Origin: Kineosporia corallincola
GTDB taxonomy: Bacteria > Actinomycetota > Actinomycetes > Actinomycetales > Kineosporiaceae
NCBI RefSeq assembly: GCF_018499875.1
Contig: NZ_JAHBAY010000008.1
Span: 1 to 64,000 of the forward strand
Direction of reading: 5' to 3'
Length of the DNA stretch: 64,000 nt
Numbering within the stretch: the stretch's first letter is position 1; each line of letters begins with the position of its first letter. The notes beneath the pieces are model-generated. The model was not told the origin of the DNA. It searched no databases and saw only the letters and a list, made by a program, of their open reading frames with translations. Position numbers and translations under genes: made by a program. Shown here piece by piece: positions 52,429 through 61,288 of the stretch.

Positions 52429-55400
52429 GTGGGTGATCGGAGCGAGATGGTCCTCGACCGCACCCGACGTCTGCTCACCTTCCTCGCCGCGGCCGCCCGG
52501 GACGTCACCGTCCGGCCGGTGCGCGACGTGTTCCGCCACGACGGCCCGCCACCGCTGACCCCGGCCGACGTGCCCGGGCACCCCCGGGTCCGGCTCGCCG
52601 CACCGGACCGGGCCGCGTGGCTGGAGGTCGGCAAGGTCGCGCCGCCGCCCGGCCCGCCGGCCGTGCCCGGGCGCCTGGCCCCGCACGTGTCCACCGGCGC
52701 ACACCAGCCGGTGCTGGCCCCCGGCGCCCCGGCCGAGCTGGAGCTGCCGTTCCACACCTGGCTGCGCGACGCCTGGCAGCCCTGGGCCGACGCCGCGTCG
52801 TCCACCCGCAGTGCCCGCGCGCTGTACGAACGGCTGTTCACCCTGCACCTGGAGGCCGAGCGCCGGCAGAGCACCCACGAGCTGGTCTGGGGCCATTCCG
52901 TTCTGGCCTGGAACCTCTCCGGCGAGGTCGTGCGCCACCCGCTGCTGCTGACCGGCGTGCTGCTGGAGCTCGACGCCGCCACCGGCGCGCTGTGCGTGCT
53001 GCCCGACGGCCCGCCCGAACTCCAGCTCGCCCCGCTGGAGGGGCTCGACCTGCCGGTGCTCGCCGAGCTGAACCGGCTGACCGAGCAGGTGGCCGCGGAG
53101 CCGTTCGAGGTCTGGGACGAGCCGGCCCGGCAGGCCCTGAACCAGTCGCTGCTGGCGCCGCTGCACCTCGATGCCGGCGTCACCGGGCAGATCCCCGAGC
53201 CGGGCGAGGTGCCGGTGATCGCCGACACCTGGGTGCTGTTCCTGCGCCGCCGGCCCACCCGGCACGAGCGGTTCTACCTCCAGCTGGCCGGACGGCTGCG
53301 CGACGACGCGGTGCTGCCCCAGGCCCTCGCCGCGGTGGTGGCGGACGACGACGAGCTCCGGGCGGCGCAGGACGAGCTGGGGCAGCTGCCCGGCGACGAG
53401 ACCTGGCGGCCGGTGGGCGAGCGCCTGCTGATGCCGCTGCCGGCCAACGCCGAGCAGGAGCGCATCGCCCGGCAGCTGGCCCGCGAGCGCGGCGTCACGG
53501 TGCAGGGCCCGCCCGGCACCGGCAAGAGCCACACGATCGCCAACCTGGTCAGCCATCTGCTGGCGCACGGCAAGCGGGTGCTGGTGACCGCGCAGAACGA
53601 GCAGGCCCTGACCGTGCTGCGCGACAAGATCCCGGAAGACCTGCGTGACCTGTCGATCGCGGTGCTCGGCTCGTCCGGCGGGGCGATGGAGCAGCTGTGG
53701 GCCTCGGCGCAGGCGGTGCAGGACATCGCCTCGCAGGTCGACGTGGACGTGGAGACCCGGGCGGTGGCGGCGCTGGAGGCCGAGCTGGACCGGGTGCGCG
53801 AGCAGCTGCGCGGCGTCGAGCTGGCCGTGCTGGAGGCGTTGCGCACCGAGGACGCGGAGTGGGACCTGCCGGCCGGGCCGGAGAAGGCGCCGCAGGTGGC
53901 GCGCTGGCTCACCGAGCACGAGTCCACGCTCGGTCTGATCCCGGACGAGCTGCCGGTGGAGGCTGTGCCGCCGCTGTCGCCGCCGGAGCTGACCCGGCTG
54001 TTCGAGCTGAGCGAACAGTTGCGGCCGGCCGACGTGCACGCGCTGCGCACCTCCCGCCCGCCCGGCGACCTGCCCACCGCGGACCGGCTGGCCGGGCTGA
54101 CCAGCCGTCTCGACGACCTGCGGCACGACGTGGCCGACTTGGAACAGTCCGGCGTGGTGGTGCGCGCGCTCGACGAGACCGGGCCGGAGCGACTCGCCGA
54201 ACTGCGGTCGATGACGGACGACGCGAACACCCGCCTGGCCGCGCTGGAGACCCCCTGGTTGCTGAAGATCCGCGCGGAGATTCGGGACTCGGCCCAGGGC
54301 GGGCAGACCTGGGCGGCCCGGGCCGAGCAGCTCCGGCAGCGCACCGGCACGGCGAACGAGCTCCAGCGGGCCCTGTTCGGCCACGAGATCGTCCTGCCGG
54401 CGGGCGATCCGCACGAGCAGCGCCGGACGCTGCGCGAGCTGGGTCAGAGATTCGCTGCGGGCAAGGCACTTCCGCGGTTCGGCGGGGGCGACCTGAAGCA
54501 GTTCCACGCCGGGGCGCTGATCGACGGCCGGCCGCTGCGCACGCCCGAAGACACCGCGCTGGCCCTGACCCGGCTGGAGCTCGCCGACGAGCGGGCCGCC
54601 ACCCGGCGCATGCTGACCCAGCTGGGGTTCACCGACATCCCGCCCGACGATGCCGATTTTCTGCACCGCGCAACGCTTCTGGCCGAGCAGGTGGCCGAGG
54701 CCGTGGACTGGGAGCTGACCCGGCTGCCCGCCCTGCTGACCCGGCTGCGCCCGCTGCTGCCGCAGCTGCGGCCCGACCTGACCACCGCCGACCTGCGTGG
54801 GCTGGCCGAGCTGCTGGCAGCCGCGCGGGCCCGGCAGGAGGAACGCGCGGTCACCGCCGAGCTGGCCGGCCTGGCCGCCCGGCTGCGCTCGGGTGCGGAG
54901 GACCTGGGCGCCTCGCCGTTGTGGAACACCCTGCGCACGGCGCTGGACCGGCGCGACTGGGGTTCCTGGGGCGGTGCCCTGGCCGAGGCGGCCCGGCTGA
55001 CGGCCCTCGAACCACTGGCGGCCGACCAGCGTTCTCTGGCCGCCCGGCTGGCCACGGTGGCGCCCGGCTGGTCCGCGGCGATCGTGGCGACCGGCGCCGA
55101 CCCGGAGGTGGTCGGCCCGGTGTCGCGCGCGGCCCGGGTCTGGCGCTGGCGCACCACCGCGACCTGGCTGGACGAGTTGCTGCGGGCCGGTGACCTGGCC
55201 CGGCTCCAGTCTCAGGTGATCGCCCTCCAGCAGCGTGAGCAGGCGCTGGTGCTCCAGCGGGCCCGGCGCGGGGCCGGGCTCGGGCTGCGGCGCAACCTGC
55301 GCGACCCCAACCGCCGGGCGCTCGCCGCCTGGTTGCGGGCCCTGGGCAAGCGGGGCAAGGGCACCGGCAGGTACGCCCCGCACTGGGAGAGCGAGGCGCG

Positions 55401-56820
55401 CCGCTTCATGCCCGGCGCGATGGGGGCCGTGCCGGTCTGGATCATGCCCGTGCACCGGGTGATCGAGAACTTCGACCCGCTGGTCACCGAGCCGTTCGAC
55501 GTGGTGATCGTGGACGAGTCCAGCCAGTGCGACCTGCTCTCGGTCGGGGTGCTGGCGCTCGGGGCGAAGGCCGTGGTGGTCGGCGACGACCAGCAGACCA
55601 GCCCGGCCGCGGTGGGGGTGAACCAGGAGCGCATCATCCAGCTCCAGAACGCGCACCTGTCCGATGTCGGCGTGAAGAGCCTGCTCACGGTGGACCAGAG
55701 CCTCTACGCCCTGTCCGAGCTGATCTTCCCGAGCACGATCCTGCTGCGCGAGCACTTCCGCTGCGTGCCGGAGATCATCGAGTTCTCCAACCGCTACTAC
55801 GACGGCGACATCCTGCCGTTGCGCGAGCCGTCCACCGCCGCCATCGGCGCGCCCCTGCGACTGATCAGAACCATGGACGGCGCAACCACCGGCTCCGCCT
55901 CGGGCGACCGGATCAACCGGGCCGAGGCCCGGGCCCTGGTCGAGCAGGTGCTCACCTGCCACCGCGACAGGGCTTACGACGGAATGACTTTCGGTGTCGT
56001 GACGGTGCAGGGCTCGGCCCAGGCCCCGCTGATCGAGAACATGCTGCGCGAGCGGCTCGGCCCGGAGGCGTTCGCGCAGCGCCGGCTGCGGGTCGGCAGC
56101 CCGGCGGCGTTCCAGGGCGACGAGCGCAACGTCGTCTTCGTCAGCATGGTCGCCGACGACGCCACCTGGGCGGCCACGAAGAACGCCGACAAGCAACGGA
56201 TCAACGTGGCGGCGTCGCGGGCCCAGGACCAGTTGTGGGTGTTCCACACGGTGGAGCCCGGCCGGCTGCACGCCGACGACCAGCGCCGGGCGCTGATGGA
56301 GTACGTCCGCGATGCCGGGTCGGCCACGGTCGAGGCCCACGACCTGGAGGCCCGCACCGAGTCGGAGTTCGAGCTGGCCGTGCTGCGCGAGCTGCTGCGG
56401 GCCGGCTACCAGGTGCAGGTGCAGCACCAGGTCGGCCGTTACCGCATCGACCTGGTGGTGGTCGGCCGGTCCGGGCGCCTGGCCGTGGAGTGCGACGGCG
56501 ACCGCTATCACGGCGCCGACCGCTGGGAGGCCGACATCCGGCGCCAGCGTCAGCTGGAACGGCTGGGCTGGACGTTCTGGCGGATCCGGGCCTCGGAGTT
56601 CTACCGCGAGCGCGCTCTCACCGTGGCCACCCTGATCGAGCGGTTGGAGCAACACGGCATCGAGCCGCGCGAGCGCCGGCGGGCCGAGTCGTCCACAGCC
56701 GAGTCGTCCACAGCCGAATCGTCCACGGCCGGGTCGGCCCCGGCGGCGTCAGCCACGGCGGAGTCGTCGGCCGGTGCCCCGCCGGACGTCATCGACCTGG
56801 ATGCTCAGGCCCGGTCCTGA
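52429..56820 (+). CDS. DUF4011-type SF1 helicase with C-terminal Vsr/DUF559-like nuclease domain
   Basis: 1463 residues. Walker A GPPGTGKSHT is near 360-369, Walker B VDESSQC near 1027, and GDDQQTSPAAVG and VAASRAQDQLW complete an SF1/UPF1-like helicase. A ~600-residue helical insert separates motifs I and II. From ~1305 there is a PD-(D/E)XK-type nuclease (YRIDLVVV...LAVECDGDRYHG) as in very-short-patch/DUF559 proteins. The last ~45 residues are Ser/Thr/Ala repeats. This domain order resembles the single-gene DUF4011-helicase-Vsr defence type (Hhe). It overlaps the convergent polymerase gene by 16 bp. Confidence 0.88.
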   Translation: MGDRSEMVLDRTRRLLTFLAAAARDVTVRPVRDVFRHDGPPPLTPADVPGHPRVRLAAPDRAAWLEVGKVAPPPGPPAVPGRLAPHVSTGAHQPVLAPGAPAELELPFHTWLRDAWQPWADAASSTRSARALYERLFTLHLEAERRQSTHELVWGHSVLAWNLSGEVVRHPLLLTGVLLELDAATGALCVLPDGPPELQLAPLEGLDLPVLAELNRLTEQVAAEPFEVWDEPARQALNQSLLAPLHLDAGVTGQIPEPGEVPVIADTWVLFLRRRPTRHERFYLQLAGRLRDDAVLPQALAAVVADDDELRAAQDELGQLPGDETWRPVGERLLMPLPANAEQERIARQLARERGVTVQGPPGTGKSHTIANLVSHLLAHGKRVLVTAQNEQALTVLRDKIPEDLRDLSIAVLGSSGGAMEQLWASAQAVQDIASQVDVDVETRAVAALEAELDRVREQLRGVELAVLEALRTEDAEWDLPAGPEKAPQVARWLTEHESTLGLIPDELPVEAVPPLSPPELTRLFELSEQLRPADVHALRTSRPPGDLPTADRLAGLTSRLDDLRHDVADLEQSGVVVRALDETGPERLAELRSMTDDANTRLAALETPWLLKIRAEIRDSAQGGQTWAARAEQLRQRTGTANELQRALFGHEIVLPAGDPHEQRRTLRELGQRFAAGKALPRFGGGDLKQFHAGALIDGRPLRTPEDTALALTRLELADERAATRRMLTQLGFTDIPPDDADFLHRATLLAEQVAEAVDWELTRLPALLTRLRPLLPQLRPDLTTADLRGLAELLAAARARQEERAVTAELAGLAARLRSGAEDLGASPLWNTLRTALDRRDWGSWGGALAEAARLTALEPLAADQRSLAARLATVAPGWSAAIVATGADPEVVGPVSRAARVWRWRTTATWLDELLRAGDLARLQSQVIALQQREQALVLQRARRGAGLGLRRNLRDPNRRALAAWLRALGKRGKGTGRYAPHWESEARRFMPGAMGAVPVWIMPVHRVIENFDPLVTEPFDVVIVDESSQCDLLSVGVLALGAKAVVVGDDQQTSPAAVGVNQERIIQLQNAHLSDVGVKSLLTVDQSLYALSELIFPSTILLREHFRCVPEIIEFSNRYYDGDILPLREPSTAAIGAPLRLIRTMDGATTGSASGDRINRAEARALVEQVLTCHRDRAYDGMTFGVVTVQGSAQAPLIENMLRERLGPEAFAQRRLRVGSPAAFQGDERNVVFVSMVADDATWAATKNADKQRINVAASRAQDQLWVFHTVEPGRLHADDQRRALMEYVRDAGSATVEAHDLEARTESEFELAVLRELLRAGYQVQVQHQVGRYRIDLVVVGRSGRLAVECDGDRYHGADRWEADIRRQRQLERLGWTFWRIRASEFYRERALTVATLIERLEQHGIEPRERRRAESSTAESSTAESSTAGSAPAASATAESSAGAPPDVIDLDAQARS
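56683..56727 (+). repeat. 15-bp in-frame repeat (3 units) at helicase 3' end
   Basis: Three units of the form GCCGAGTCGTCCACA coding AESST. They lie in the disordered tail after the nuclease domain. Confidence 0.9.
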
Positions 56821-58067
56821 GGCTGCTCGCCGGGTCCGCCACGGATCATCCCGGCCCACGGGTCGTAGGTGGCGAGAAGTTCTTCCTGCGGCGGGCGTTC
56901 GGCCTCCGGCACGTGCTGGAGGTTGATCCGGATCCGGTACCACAGCGAGCTGCGGCCGCGCATGCCGTCGACCAGCACGTCGGCCGGCTGGAGCTGCGTG
57001 GCCACCTGCGGGTGCCGGGTTCTCCAGACCTCCAGCCACTCCAGGGCCTCGGGCCTGGTGCGGGTGCGGGCGACCTCGATGAGCGGCATGGTCGGCTGCC
57101 GCCGCCCCTCCCCCTTCGGCGGCTTCTCCGCGGGGCCCATCTCCCTGGCCAGGGCCAGCAGGGAATCCACTGTGCCGGAAGAGTTCTCGATCCCGGCCCA
57201 GGGGTCGCCGAGCTCCTTCCAGCGCGGCAACACGGTGGCCACGGTGAGGTCCTCCATCCGGCAGCGTTCCACGTCGTCCCACAGCAGCGGGGTCGAGACA
57301 CGCGCGTCGGCGACCGCCCGCACCGACCAGACCGACGCCGTGGTGCGGTCCTTCGCCATCTGGTTGAAATCGACGAAGACCTGCGAGCCGCGCTCCTCCT
57401 TCCACCAGCGGGCCGTGGCCAGGGCCGGGACCCGGTGCTCCACCTCGCGCGCCACCGTCTCGGCGGCCAGTCGCAGGTCTTTGAACGGCCGGTCCGGCCG
57501 CACCCGGGAGTAGATGTGAAAGCCGCGTGAGCCGGAGGTTTTCGGCCAGCTCTCCAGTCCATGGTCGGTCAGCACCTGACGCACGGTGAACGCCACCTCC
57601 ACCACCTGCCCCCAGTCCACGCCGGGCATCGGGTCGAGGTCGATGCGCAGTTCGTCGGGCCGGTCCAGGTTCTCGGCCAGCACCGGATGCGGATTCAGGT
57701 CGATGCAGCCCAGATTGATCACCCAGGCCAGGCCGGCCGGGTCGCGGATCACGGTCTCCTCGGCGGACCGGCCGCTCGCGTACTTCAGCTCCGCCACCTC
57801 GACGAACGGCGGACGTGTGGACGGCGCCCGCTTCTGGAAGAACGCCTCCTCGTCGATCCCCTTCACGAAGCGCTTGAGCACCATCGGGCGGCCACCCGCC
57901 CCGCGCAGCGCCCCTTCGGCCACCGTGAGGTAGTAGTGCACGAGGTCGAGCTTGGTGATGCCGACGCCCCCGCCGGGGCGCTGCGCCGTGGGGAACACCA
58001 TCTTGTCCGGGTGCGTCACCGTCACCTCGTGCCCGGCAACCTCGAGCACCACGCCCTTGTCAGCCAT
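56805..58067 (-). CDS. LigD-like DNA polymerase/primase domain protein
   Basis: 420 residues; residues ~10-290 are the polymerase domain of LigD (archaeo-eukaryotic primase fold) with HPDKMVFP, the metal-binding DLDP of RIDLDPMPG (about 141-149), SGSRGFHIYSR and the third acid in VFVDFNQM. It fills gaps in non-homologous end joining. The remaining C-terminus is a helical extension; no ligase or phosphoesterase domain is attached. TAGCCT 6 nt before the ATG suggests leaderless. It converges with the helicase-nuclease. Confidence 0.93.
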   Translation of the reverse strand: MADKGVVLEVAGHEVTVTHPDKMVFPTAQRPGGGVGITKLDLVHYYLTVAEGALRGAGGRPMVLKRFVKGIDEEAFFQKRAPSTRPPFVEVAELKYASGRSAEETVIRDPAGLAWVINLGCIDLNPHPVLAENLDRPDELRIDLDPMPGVDWGQVVEVAFTVRQVLTDHGLESWPKTSGSRGFHIYSRVRPDRPFKDLRLAAETVAREVEHRVPALATARWWKEERGSQVFVDFNQMAKDRTTASVWSVRAVADARVSTPLLWDDVERCRMEDLTVATVLPRWKELGDPWAGIENSSGTVDSLLALAREMGPAEKPPKGEGRRQPTMPLIEVARTRTRPEALEWLEVWRTRHPQVATQLQPADVLVDGMRGRSSLWYRIRINLQHVPEAERPPQEELLATYDPWAGMIRGGPGEQPQDRA

Positions 58068-58297
58068 CCGCCCAGGCTAGGCCGCACCAGGGTGGTCCGC
58101 CGGGAGAACAACGCCCGGAATCCAAGCACCCGGATGCGCCTTCGCGGCCGCTTTCGTCGTCCATTATTTGACGTTTTGCCCGCATGCTGGAACGGAAAAG
58201 CCGATAGCCGAAAGGTTAAGCCGATCGGGTGACGGATGTTCCGCTGTCACTCCGGTGGTGGATGCCCCTGTCCGGCGAAACCTCCTACCGTCCGGAC

Positions 58298-58552
58298 ATG
58301 CCCACACTCACGGATGTGCTCCCGCGCAACGTCGCGGCCGAGCGCGCCCGGCGCGGGTGGCTCCAGAAAGACCTGGGCCGGCGGCTCGGCTGGAGCGGCA
58401 CCAAGGTGTCCGAGCTGGAGACCGGCGCCCGGCGGGTGCAGGTGGACGAGCTCGGACCGCTCTGCAAGGCACTGGGTGTGCCGCTGTGGAAGCTCGCCGA
58501 GGGCGCCGACCCCGAGGAGCTGGAGGCCCTGGGCCTCACCCCGCACCGTTAG
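58298..58552 (+). CDS. Small XRE-family DNA-binding protein
   Basis: 84 residues with a single XRE helix-turn-helix: AAERARRGWLQKDLGRRLGW and following GTKVSELETGARRV. TACCGT 7 nt upstream supports the ATG at 58298; a longer frame from 58229 is possible. The stop overlaps that of the convergent NAD-kinase-like gene by 4 bp. Target unknown; it may belong to the neighbouring Nudix/SPFH locus. Confidence 0.8.
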   Translation: MPTLTDVLPRNVAAERARRGWLQKDLGRRLGWSGTKVSELETGARRVQVDELGPLCKALGVPLWKLAEGADPEELEALGLTPHR

Positions 58553-59421
58553 ACCAGCGCCAGCCGCGGGCCGGCCACCCGGACCTCGATCTGCTGGCCC
58601 CAGGTCAGGTGCAGCCGGTCTGCCTCCAGGCCGTCGCCGAACACCACCAGATCCCCCTCCGCCACCACCGGCAGCGACTCGCCCGGCCGCAGCAGTCCCT
58701 GGGTGCGCGTGGTGCCGGTGACCGGCGACGGCCAGGCCTCACGCACGAACCAGATCAGCGAATCATCCAGCCGGCCGGGCAGTTCCGGGGCACCGGCCCG
58801 CTCCCGGGCCAGTGAGGCGCACCAGCCGGTGGAGCCGGTCCCGGTGCCGATCAGGATCCCGGACGACGACTGCCGCTCCTCGTGCAGCCGGTAGCGTGCG
58901 GACTGGTGCCCGGCGTCGCCGATGTAGAGCTCGTTCAGGGCCCGCAGCGACTGCCCGTCGTCCAGCACCGCCTCCACCATCGCGCGCGACTCGGCCCGCG
59001 CCGTTCCGGACGCCACCCGGGGCAGCAGCGCCACGCACTCCGACGCCGAATGCCGCACCAGTACACCCGGATTCACACCCGGCTCGGGATCGACACCGAT
59101 CACCGGCTGCCCGCTGACGTACTTGGCCACGTTCGCCACCAGACCGTCCTGACCCACGGCCACCACCACGTCCTCCGGGTCGAACCGCAGCCGGGGCAGG
59201 TCGGACCGCTCCACCGAGGCCCGCCGCCAGCCCCCCGGCACACCGGCCTCGACCAGGCGCAACGCCTCGTGCAGGGCGTCGTGCCGGCGCTGCACCGAGG
59301 CCAGGTCGCGCCCGCGCGAGCGCAGGAAGAACTCGGCCTGCCCGCGGGTGCCGTGCCGGTCGAGCAGCAGGTCCAGCTCGCTGCGCCGGTGCACGAGCAC
59401 CGCGCGGGGGGCGAGGGCCAT
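58549..59421 (-). CDS. NAD kinase-like protein
   Basis: 290 residues of the ATP-NAD kinase/DAGK superfamily. Visible are VVVAVGQDGLVANVAKY (corresponding to GGDGT, here GQDGL), NELYIGDAGHQSARYRL (NE motif) and GTGTGSTGWCAS (substrate loop). The changed GGDG makes true NAD kinase activity uncertain; it may use another nucleotide or only bind NAD(P). The ATG overlaps the SPFH stop by 1 nt (TGATG), so both are one operon, divergent from the Nudix regulator. Confidence 0.82.
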   Translation of the reverse strand: MALAPRAVLVHRRSELDLLLDRHGTRGQAEFFLRSRGRDLASVQRRHDALHEALRLVEAGVPGGWRRASVERSDLPRLRFDPEDVVVAVGQDGLVANVAKYVSGQPVIGVDPEPGVNPGVLVRHSASECVALLPRVASGTARAESRAMVEAVLDDGQSLRALNELYIGDAGHQSARYRLHEERQSSSGILIGTGTGSTGWCASLARERAGAPELPGRLDDSLIWFVREAWPSPVTGTTRTQGLLRPGESLPVVAEGDLVVFGDGLEADRLHLTWGQQIEVRVAGPRLALV

Positions 59422-60428
59422 CAGGCGTCCCGGTCCGTGCGGGCCAGGGCGCTCAGGGCGCTCGTGATGACGTCGGGGGTCAGGGTCAGGCTGCCGATCT
59501 GCGGCAGGTGGGCGGCGGCCTCGCGGGCGGCCAGGGCCAGCAGCACGTCGCGGTCGATGGTCGCGTAGACCGCCATCCGGGCCGCCTCGGTCTCCGCCTC
59601 GGCGGCACCGACCATCCGCGTGGTGTCGGCCCGGGCCTCGGCCAGCACCCGGGTCTGCTCGGCCTTGGCCTGGGTCTCGATCTGCCCGGCGGCCGCGGCC
59701 TCGGTGGCCCGGCGGCGCTCGTTCGCCCCGCGCTGGGTGACCAGCTGCTCCTCCCGGGTGGCCAGCTCGATCTGCGACTGGAGCTCGTTCTCGCTGATCG
59801 CCCGCTCCCGCTCGACGGCCAGGGCGCGGCGCTCGTAGGTGGCCCGGTCGGCCTCCTGCTGCACCTGCTCCCGGGCCGGGGTCTGGAGGGCCCGCTCCAC
59901 GTCCGCCTCGGGCCGCACGTCGATCACCCGCACGTCCACCACCTCCACACCGGTCTGGAGCAGCCGCTCGTCGCCGGACAGCCCGGCGGCGATCCGCTCG
60001 CGCACCCCGGTCATCCCGGTGGCCAGCGCGCCGGTCAGCGGCAGGCCGGCCAGCAGGGCGAGCGCGTGCTGCTGCGAGGCCTCGGTCAGCATCTGCGCGA
60101 TCTGCTCCAGCGGACGCCCGCGCCAGCGGCCGGTTCTCGGCTCCAGGCCGAAGTCGAGGCGGCGGGCTGCCAGGTCCGGGTCGGCCATCCGGTAGGCGAC
60201 GGTGGCCTGCACCGTGACGTCCTGGAAGTCGGACGTGCGGGCGTGGAAGAGCAGGCCGAGCTCCCGGTCGTCGATCGGCACCTCGCTGAGGGCGCTGGTC
60301 AGGGGGCGGAACCAGAAGGCCTGGCCGGTTCCGGCGTGCACGGTACGGCCCCGGCTGACGTGCACCAGGTGATCCGTCGTGCCGCTGCGGACGTGCCAGA
60401 CGAAGGGGTAGCGGCGGATCTCGGCCAT
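59421..60428 (-). CDS. SPFH/band 7 domain protein
   Basis: 335 residues. An SPFH domain (about 1-195) is followed by a long Ala/Glu/Arg-rich coiled coil (about 195-300) and a short C-terminal region, the flotillin/stomatin layout but without an evident membrane helix at the N-terminus. Proteins of this class form rings or scaffolds at membranes. The ATG at 60428 has GGAGG about 7 nt upstream. First gene of the SPFH - NAD-kinase-like operon, with a palindrome 20 nt upstream of the start. Confidence 0.88.
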   Translation of the reverse strand: MAEIRRYPFVWHVRSGTTDHLVHVSRGRTVHAGTGQAFWFRPLTSALSEVPIDDRELGLLFHARTSDFQDVTVQATVAYRMADPDLAARRLDFGLEPRTGRWRGRPLEQIAQMLTEASQQHALALLAGLPLTGALATGMTGVRERIAAGLSGDERLLQTGVEVVDVRVIDVRPEADVERALQTPAREQVQQEADRATYERRALAVERERAISENELQSQIELATREEQLVTQRGANERRRATEAAAAGQIETQAKAEQTRVLAEARADTTRMVGAAEAETEAARMAVYATIDRDVLLALAAREAAAHLPQIGSLTLTPDVITSALSALARTDRDA

Positions 60429-60447
60429 CGGTCTTCCTCCCGACTTA

Positions 60448-60462
60448 TCGTCACCGTGACGA
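60448..60462. promoter_or_regulatory. NrtR-type palindrome facing the SPFH operon
   Basis: TCGTCA-CCG-TGACGA, a perfect 6-bp palindrome, 20 nt upstream of the SPFH ATG. Preceded by TTA like its partner at 60499. Confidence 0.7.
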
Positions 60463-60498
60463 GTCATGTCGAGATGACGGTAGCCCGTACCTTTGTTA

Positions 60499-60513
60499 TC
60501 GTCAACCAGACGA
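60499..60513. promoter_or_regulatory. NrtR-type palindrome facing the Nudix regulator gene
   Basis: TCGTCA-ACC-AGACGA, one mismatch in the second arm, 31 nt upstream of the Nudix GTG. Centres of the two boxes are 51 bp apart, five helical turns, which allows cooperative or looped binding. Confidence 0.7.
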
Positions 60514-60544
60514 AAGACGCCTCGCGCCGAAAGGACCCACCGCC

Positions 60545-61288
60545 GTGTCCGACTCCGAGAGCCTCGAGGACTACGACCCCGCGAAATACCCGCCCATCGC
60601 GGTGACCGTCGACATCGTCCTGCTGACCATCCGCGACGACAGTCTGGCGGCCCTGCTGATCCGCCGGGGCGGCGAGCCGTTCAAGGGCTGCTACGCCCTG
60701 CCCGGCGGTTTCGTGCAGCCCGACGAGACCCTGGCGGCGGCCGCGGCGCGCGAGCTCGAAGAGGAAACCGGCGCCCGCGGAATGCATCTGGAGCAGCTGG
60801 GCACCTACGGCGACCCGGGCCGCGACCCCCGGATGCGGGTGGTCAGCGTGGCCTACCTGGCTCTCATCCCGAACCCGCCGGAGGTCACCGGCGGCAGCGA
60901 CGCCGAGTCCGCCGAGTGGTCGCCGGTGGCCACGTTCCTCGACTCCACCCTGCCCGACGCCCCGTCGCTGCTCGCCTTCGACCACCGCCAGATCCTGCGT
61001 GACGGCGTCGAGAGAGCACGCGGCAAGCTCGAATACAGCGGCCTGGCCACGGCCTTCTGCGGCAGCGAGTTCACCGTGGGCGAGCTGCGCCGGGTCTACG
61101 AGATCGTCTGGGGTGTCGACCTGGACGCCCGCAACTTCCACCGCAAGGTCACCGGCACCCTCGGCTTCCTGGAACCCACCGGCGAGATGACCACCCGCGG
61201 CGGCGGGCGCCCGGCCCAGCTGTTCCGCCGCGGGGCCACCCAGACCCTCAACCCGCCGATCCTGCGGCCGTCGCCGACGGTGTTCTAG
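60545..61288 (+). CDS. NrtR-like Nudix / winged-helix regulator
   Basis: 247 residues. Residues ~18-150 are a Nudix domain with a full Nudix box: G55, E61, R69-E70, E73-E74 and G76 fit GX5EX7REUXEEXGU. Residues ~155-235 form a winged helix. This is the NrtR architecture (ADP-ribose-sensing repressor of NAD genes); most NrtR proteins have a degenerate box, whereas here catalysis may be possible. AAGGA precedes the GTG. It is divergent from the SPFH/NAD-kinase-like operon, with two matching palindromes between. Confidence 0.88.
   Translation: MSDSESLEDYDPAKYPPIAVTVDIVLLTIRDDSLAALLIRRGGEPFKGCYALPGGFVQPDETLAAAAARELEEETGARGMHLEQLGTYGDPGRDPRMRVVSVAYLALIPNPPEVTGGSDAESAEWSPVATFLDSTLPDAPSLLAFDHRQILRDGVERARGKLEYSGLATAFCGSEFTVGELRRVYEIVWGVDLDARNFHRKVTGTLGFLEPTGEMTTRGGGRPAQLFRRGATQTLNPPILRPSPTVF

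Follow-up and report, generated by a model that had tools for sequence, protein, structure and literature searches.

A predicted NrtR regulon in Kineosporia corallincola that extends from NAD genes to an operon for an SPFH protein and an NADK2-like kinase

Regulators of the NrtR type, such as the Shewanella protein whose structure with DNA is 3GZ6 and MsNrtR of Mycobacterium smegmatis, combine a Nudix domain with a winged helix and use palindromic sites at their own gene and at NAD genes, according to the available part of PMC6800001. In the accessible portion of PMC4666351, the Nudix box of NAD-regulating NrtRs is described as generally impaired, and their sites as varying between groups. The stretch of DNA analysed here, hereafter the window, comprises 64,000 nucleotides of a Kineosporia corallincola contig (NZ_JAHBAY010000008.1, positions 1-64,000; this genome is G000, and G and L numbers designate genomes and loci). 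At 58549-61288 it carries a regulator that resembles those NrtRs in architecture and in its predicted palindromic sites at its own and at NAD genes, divergent from an operon for an SPFH protein and an NAD-kinase-like protein. We consider it rather probable that this module is an NAD- or ADP-ribose-sensing repressor which, on release, would induce NAD salvage together with an SPFH-organised NAD(H) kinase. Comparison of relatives establishes the gene order, the predicted operators, the sites common with NAD genes, and the predicted kinase fold with its catalytic residues. The components of the module, in window positions, are:

58549-59421, minus strand: NAD-kinase-fold gene, 290 amino acids, NADK2-like, with a GQDGL signature
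59421-60428, minus strand: SPFH/Band 7 gene, 335 amino acids from the corrected ATG, no transmembrane segment, long C-terminal helix
60445-60465, no strand: predicted operator O1, TTATCGTCACCGTGACGAGTC, differing from the consensus at three positions, immediately before the SPFH start
60477-60505, minus strand: tentative SPFH promoter, TTGACG - 17 nt - TACCGT, read by eye
60496-60516, no strand: predicted operator O2, TTATCGTCAACCAGACGAAAG, three mismatches, overlapping the minus-strand TTGACG element
60545-61288, plus strand: NrtR-type regulator gene, 247 amino acids, Nudix domain with intact box and NrtR winged helix

The original prediction, made from the letters of the window, had described coupled SPFH and NAD-kinase-like genes divergent from a Nudix/winged-helix gene, and the open reading frames agree with it: the SPFH gene, which ends at 59421, overlaps the kinase-like gene by 1 nt on the minus strand, and the regulator gene lies on the plus strand. 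The SPFH start given by the mechanical listing of reading frames (60467) was too early. Since the start at ATG 60428 (MAEIRRYPF...) is conserved in relatives and has a GGAGG upstream, the gene was taken to begin there, and therefore the intergenic region measures 116 bp and contains both operators.

The regulatory half of the model is well supported by comparison. A repeated palindrome, with consensus TTATCGTCAnnnTGACGATAA, was found in the intergenic regions of 70 loci and was used as a search pattern with at most 3 mismatches; the actinobacterial locus counts refer to the best 80 of the 169 relatives found. The window contains two sites, against 0.00 expected from shuffled sequences. Near the SPFH start set by the script, at least one predicted site was present in 74 of the 80 loci and at least two in 66, and the remaining 809,731 bp of these loci held only five further matches, four of them close to SPFH at three loci, the fifth at an nrtR. 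The sites at L055, L058 and L079 were missed at first because the script had put the SPFH start too far upstream; after allowing for these three misplaced starts, 77 of the 80 loci have an operator at SPFH. As for the other loci without sites, L067 holds only part of the SPFH gene, and at L006 and L037 no site came within 3 mismatches. The spacing of the two sites is mostly 33-34 or 44-45 bp across loci and 51 bp in the window. Judged by eye, one operator overlaps the TTGACG element and the other sits between the promoter-like pair and the SPFH start, a placement that looks like a repressor layout. The corresponding gaps of proteobacterial loci show other repeated palindromes, recognised in part by eye. 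The regulator would bind these predicted sites.

The same pattern also leads to NAD genes. In G000 it occurs at three places genome-wide, two in the module and the third 61 bp upstream of pncB, an NAD salvage gene whose product was identified by its match to NF006698. A pncB with a predicted site was present in all six genomes of the window's genus that were searched (G000-G005). Furthermore, predicted sites were located at nrtR, pncB and nadA in a Kitasatospora (G062), at an nrtR away from the operon in a Streptomyces (G065) and at pnuC-nadR in G001 and in G008; in the last, the pnuC-like stretch was read by eye. In seven of seven genomes of another genus, which we take for Streptomyces, an nrtR lying away from the operon carries a site. 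The regulator thus still appears to control NAD metabolism, because the same operator stands at pncB here and at NAD genes in several relatives. The original prediction had set the module apart from the usual control of NAD biosynthesis, and this contrast was not borne out; the NAD(P) link that it proposed is likely. The sister genome G001 (97% complete) keeps nrtR with one operator, the helix-turn-helix (HTH) and LigD genes, and the sites at pncB and pnuC; no kinase was found in the genome, and there is no SPFH gene in the 5-kb stretch between nrtR and the HTH-LigD genes. As G001 retains nrtR and the NAD-gene sites without the operon, the NAD role of the regulator stands independent of the operon.

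Several candidate sites were not counted for this regulator. Those of the TTATAGTC...GACTATAA type (L146, L219, L220, L240) lie at pnuC, at another nrtR paralog or at nadR: pnuC was recognised at L219 (PF04973) and L146 (by eye), and the L240 site is upstream of nadR and an nrtR paralog. This related palindrome suggests that Streptomyces-type genomes hold two NrtR paralogs with distinct sites. Also set aside were those that G058 (L150) and G070 (L148) carry at further NrtR-type genes, and one at the NAPRTase gene of a Cellulomonas (L155), which overlaps the start region. Sites within coding regions (L135 and L138, for example) and those at other genes (L141, L147, L214-L218, L239) were treated as chance matches or left without explanation; at L214, L215, L216, L217 and L218 they are operator-like palindromes near genes of unassigned function in Streptomyces-type genomes.

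The NrtR architecture named in the original prediction was confirmed by Pfam matches above cut-off to NUDIX (PF00293, E 5e-19) and NrtR_WHD (PF21906, 6e-16), and the best solved relative is 3gz5/3gz6, with a profile match of E 1.3e-43 over nearly the whole length. The curated NCBIfam family model gave 133.6 bits and its cut-off of 400 was not reached. The protein is probably a true NrtR of the NAD regulon, with the SPFH-kinase operon as an added member. Its Nudix box, already described as intact, reads as complete in the sequence, as it does in 60 of 61 operon-adjacent regulators (L002-L081), and the Treponema regulator also retains it. The full box is absent from all eight proteobacterial regulators (seven genera) and from those of G324, G446 and G278, distant members of the phylum; hydrolysis is therefore not general, and it may be an extra of one branch that is not needed for the module as such.

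The original prediction could be judged by a survey of conserved co-occurrence, and here it held; binding of the intergenic DNA, on which it also depended, draws support from the conserved operators. All 80 actinobacterial loci have the SPFH and kinase genes side by side on one strand, which is more than chance, and a divergent Nudix (NrtR) gene lies within 1 kb in 61 of them. Of the 19 loci without an adjacent Nudix gene, 15 are titled Streptomyces, Kitasatospora, Streptacidiphilus or Actinacidiphila, and two (L004, L067) are cut; its absence at L004 is uninformative because only 132 bases precede SPFH there. In L019 and L026 the SPFH gene has an in-frame stop in the reading made by the script. 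The closest named relative among the matches listed is Kineosporia mesophila (82% in the kinase protein). In a 396-genome sample of the phylum, searched at E <=1e-25 for the kinase and E <=1e-40 for SPFH, 13 genomes have the kinase and 14 have SPFH; all 13 have both, and the locus of the fourteenth SPFH is cut short by its contig end. The most distant of the 13, G324, keeps Nudix, SPFH and kinase genes together, with the motif GPDGM.

Beyond the phylum, the search covered plasmid-collection records and phage and viral collections. The kinase occurs in 57 plasmid records, 42 of them of Rhizobium. SPFH precedes the kinase in all 11 records examined, being once interrupted and once cut by a transposon, and a divergent NrtR-type gene is present in eight of them (two Rhizobium, Cupriavidus, Providencia, Methylomonas, Proteus, Acinetobacter and Moraxella). 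In the Treponema record the NrtR-type gene is about 4 kb off on the same strand, and none was found in the Roseomonas and pHHV216 stretches. A megablast comparison of the Moraxella triad with E. coli genomes, in 'near' mode only, gave no match. The pairwise identities of the three proteins correlate over 30 loci (r 0.921-0.966), as they do within 22 actinobacterial loci drawn from the window and its actinobacterial relatives (r 0.745-0.860); these correlations mostly reflect shared ancestry, and they fit a module moving as one. In the Proteus, Moraxella and Acinetobacter records (L235, L236, L238) the triad adjoins tet(J) or tetR/tet(H), and in pHHV216 (L237) the SPFH gene is cut by the transposon. 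Part of the module may have been acquired by a resistance element.

For the kinase-like protein no relevant Pfam family was found, and its best NCBIfam NAD kinase match was weak (E 1.4e-4, 21.5 of 260 bits). For a profile of 32 sequences the strongest match was human mitochondrial NADK2 (E 2.7e-15, covering profile positions 5-213 of 297); bacterial NAD kinases matched more weakly (E 2.6e-8, positions 82-208). The predicted structure has a predicted local distance difference test score (pLDDT) of 92.5, and Foldseek ranked NADK2 first with it (template modelling score, TM, 0.73; E 3.7e-17), so that the modelled fold is that of an NAD kinase. The residues called vital in M. tuberculosis Ppnk are Asp, Asn, Thr, Glu and Tyr, as given in the part of PMC8553519 available. 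When these were mapped by motif onto 30 sequences from three phyla, Asp, Asn and Thr were kept in all, Glu was Glu or Asp, and Tyr was Trp: D92, N163, T198 and W200 are invariant, and position 164 is E or D. The Trp stands in the same alignment column of NADK2, and the NE/D motif and conserved region II are retained in the family. The change of GGDG to GQDG noted in the original prediction is real; it is not confined to this gene, since the actinobacterial loci read G[QPS]DGL, the second residue being Q in 76 of the 80, P in three and S in one. Nor is that residue G in any of the 30 cross-phylum sequences, and the proteobacterial and Treponema copies examined have Q. For the catalytic half, the most probable reading is an additional NAD(H) kinase.

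The SPFH protein matches Band_7 in Pfam (E 2e-12, 47.7 bits against a cut-off of 23.6). Its model, with a pLDDT of 85.4 and a predicted template modelling score (pTM) of 0.52, shows the SPFH domain followed by a 116-residue helix, and Foldseek matched it to HflK/C, stomatin, erlin, flotillin and vault protein. Membership of this family makes an oligomeric ring or cage likely. The protein had been called membrane-scaffold-like, a description that is weak because none of 19 SPFH sequences has a transmembrane segment (top 19-residue hydropathy <=1.68), although the protein may attach peripherally. The constant pairing of the two genes points to a physical cooperation of SPFH and kinase.

From these elements we infer the binding of the sites, the repression, the ligand of the regulator, what the kinase phosphorylates, its physical partnership with SPFH and the purpose of the module. 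The NrtR-type repressor would sit on the two palindromic operators between its own gene and the SPFH-kinase operon, and on a further operator at an NAD salvage gene, here pncB. ADP-ribose or another NAD-derived ligand would release it, and the cell would then make more NAD-precursor salvage enzyme, together with an oligomer of SPFH and a second kinase for NAD(H), the NADK2-like one. This kinase, for which the SPFH assembly probably serves as platform or organiser, would form NADP(H), and the module would serve to adjust NAD versus NADP under NAD stress.

It should be noted that a number of observations weigh against this explanation. On the regulatory side, a promoter scan gave no promoter; at the SPFH genes of G281 and G446 no site came within 3 mismatches; a backward control pattern gave 2 matches per strand in G000 (and none in 34 of 35 other genomes); no pncB was found beside any site in the seven Streptomyces-type genomes, where the sites away from the operon were compared; and of 14 further genomes scanned only G062 and G065 gave additional counted sites, the remaining ones having no sites, sites within coding regions or sites at other genes. 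The absence of the full Nudix box from the proteobacterial and some distant regulators belongs here too, and related species do not count as independent evidence. On the catalytic side, GGDGT is replaced by GQDGL, one canonical NAD kinase is encoded elsewhere in the genome, and the TM-scores are moderate, with bacterial NAD kinases (about 0.60, E 3.3e-16) close to NADK2 in E-value.

With GGDG altered, other substrates or donors come into question. Under the same NrtR regulation, the kinase might act on another metabolite (ADP-ribose, a nucleoside or a sugar) or use another phosphate donor, the fixed GxDG, with x other than G, marking a changed chemistry. The consistent Q, P or S in all 80 actinobacterial loci and all 30 cross-phylum sequences, the canonical NADK encoded alongside and database names such as sugar kinase speak for this. 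However, the family retains the catalytic Asp, the NE/D motif and the TG.G.TGW region, and its nearest relative of known structure is an NAD kinase; we hold this reading to be a doubtful possibility. The altered motif and the close SPFH partnership would also suit an NAD(P)-binding subunit with weak catalysis that acts as a gate or sensor inside an SPFH ring and does not make NADP, but the invariant catalytic Asp and Asn over so large a divergence argue for selection on activity and make this improbable.

A further alternative, an anti-phage or other defence module using NAD, had been raised in the original prediction. The patchy distribution (13 of 396 genomes), the 57 plasmid-collection records with the kinase and a defence-like helicase-nuclease gene nearby (52429-56820) could be read in its favor. 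Nevertheless, PADLOC gave no match for the kinase or SPFH, and for the regulator only PDC-S07 (22.8 bits, 55 residues of the Nudix domain); no relative of the three proteins was found in viral contigs (prefiltered by pattern) or phage collections; and the module has its operator in common with NAD genes. The suggestion is thus unsupported for the three proteins, and a defence role is unlikely, in our estimate very much so. Finally, that NrtR controls itself and NAD genes only, with SPFH-kinase as a mere divergent neighbour, agrees with G001, but is hardly credible given that Streptomycetaceae-type loci without an adjacent nrtR still carry operators upstream of SPFH.

Two neighbourhoods deserve mention in their own right. 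About 1.7 kb from the module, the gene at 52429-56820 encodes a large helicase-nuclease (AAA_11/AAA_12 and REase_MTES_1575) that matches the Hhe and PDC-S37 defence models, and at 56805-58552 there are a stand-alone LigD primase-polymerase domain gene and a small HTH gene, also beside the module in the close relatives examined. Elsewhere in G000 (L098, 2957-6770; G000:C14 near 166 kb), a second NrtR-type regulator directly precedes a phosphorylase-superfamily nucleosidase with PADLOC effector matches, which suggests an NrtR-controlled conflict system.

The regulated salvage and NAD(H) kinase module favored above predicts a second, regulated NADP(H) route in actinobacteria and several Proteobacteria. 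For many bacterial SPFH proteins no clear function has been defined, and a small, widely conserved SPFH-kinase operon under an NAD sensor gives a testable function for both proteins. More tentatively, the module may be a cross-phylum, self-regulated response to NAD status, in which NrtR switches on a cytosolic SPFH cage housing an NADK2-related GQDGL kinase with altered chemistry on NAD or an NAD breakdown product. If true, a cytosolic SPFH cage with a kinase would be a bacterial counterpart of the compartmented NADP production of mitochondria.

No described system with this combination was found in the literature searched, in agreement with the original prediction. The full-text search gave nothing joining NrtR with SPFH, the founding NrtR study being outside its coverage; nothing joining SPFH with NAD kinase, nor bacterial NADK2-like proteins with SPFH partners; and, among papers on SPFH and Nudix, none titled on this subject. 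The founding study (Rodionov 2008) may mention an SPFH/prohibitin-like target. The prokaryotic SPFH8 and SPFH9 groups resemble the present protein in being without predicted transmembrane domains, as far as the available part of PMC2636767 goes; in the operons described there SPFH is joined to NfeD, whereas the partner here is a kinase, and the words 'nudix' and 'kinase' are absent from its main text.

Among regulators, MsNrtR has a mutated, inactive Nudix box according to the available part of PMC6800001, unlike the intact box here and in most actinobacterial neighbours; from mycobacterial NrtR the present one also differs in its operator and in having the SPFH-kinase operon as a target. The NadQ regulon has nearly the same palindrome layout (ttATRCTCannntGAGYATaa), and the section of PMC5343134 at hand states that the winged helix of NadQ is homologous to that of NrtR and that, unlike NrtR, NadQ carries an unrelated N-terminal sensor domain. 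With regard to the kinase, actinobacteria of the genera Streptomyces, Streptacidiphilus and Amycolatopsis likewise have a second NADK in the nadK1/nadK2 duplicates of PMC6675116; in the part available these duplicates are defined by orthology to E. coli nadK. Human NADK2/C5orf33, covered in the portion of PMC8553519 available, is the best match in both sequence profile and fold and has the Trp in the same column; it differs in reading GGDGT where the bacterial protein reads GQDGL, the match ends at profile position 213 of 297, and the bacterial kinase is encoded in an operon with SPFH.

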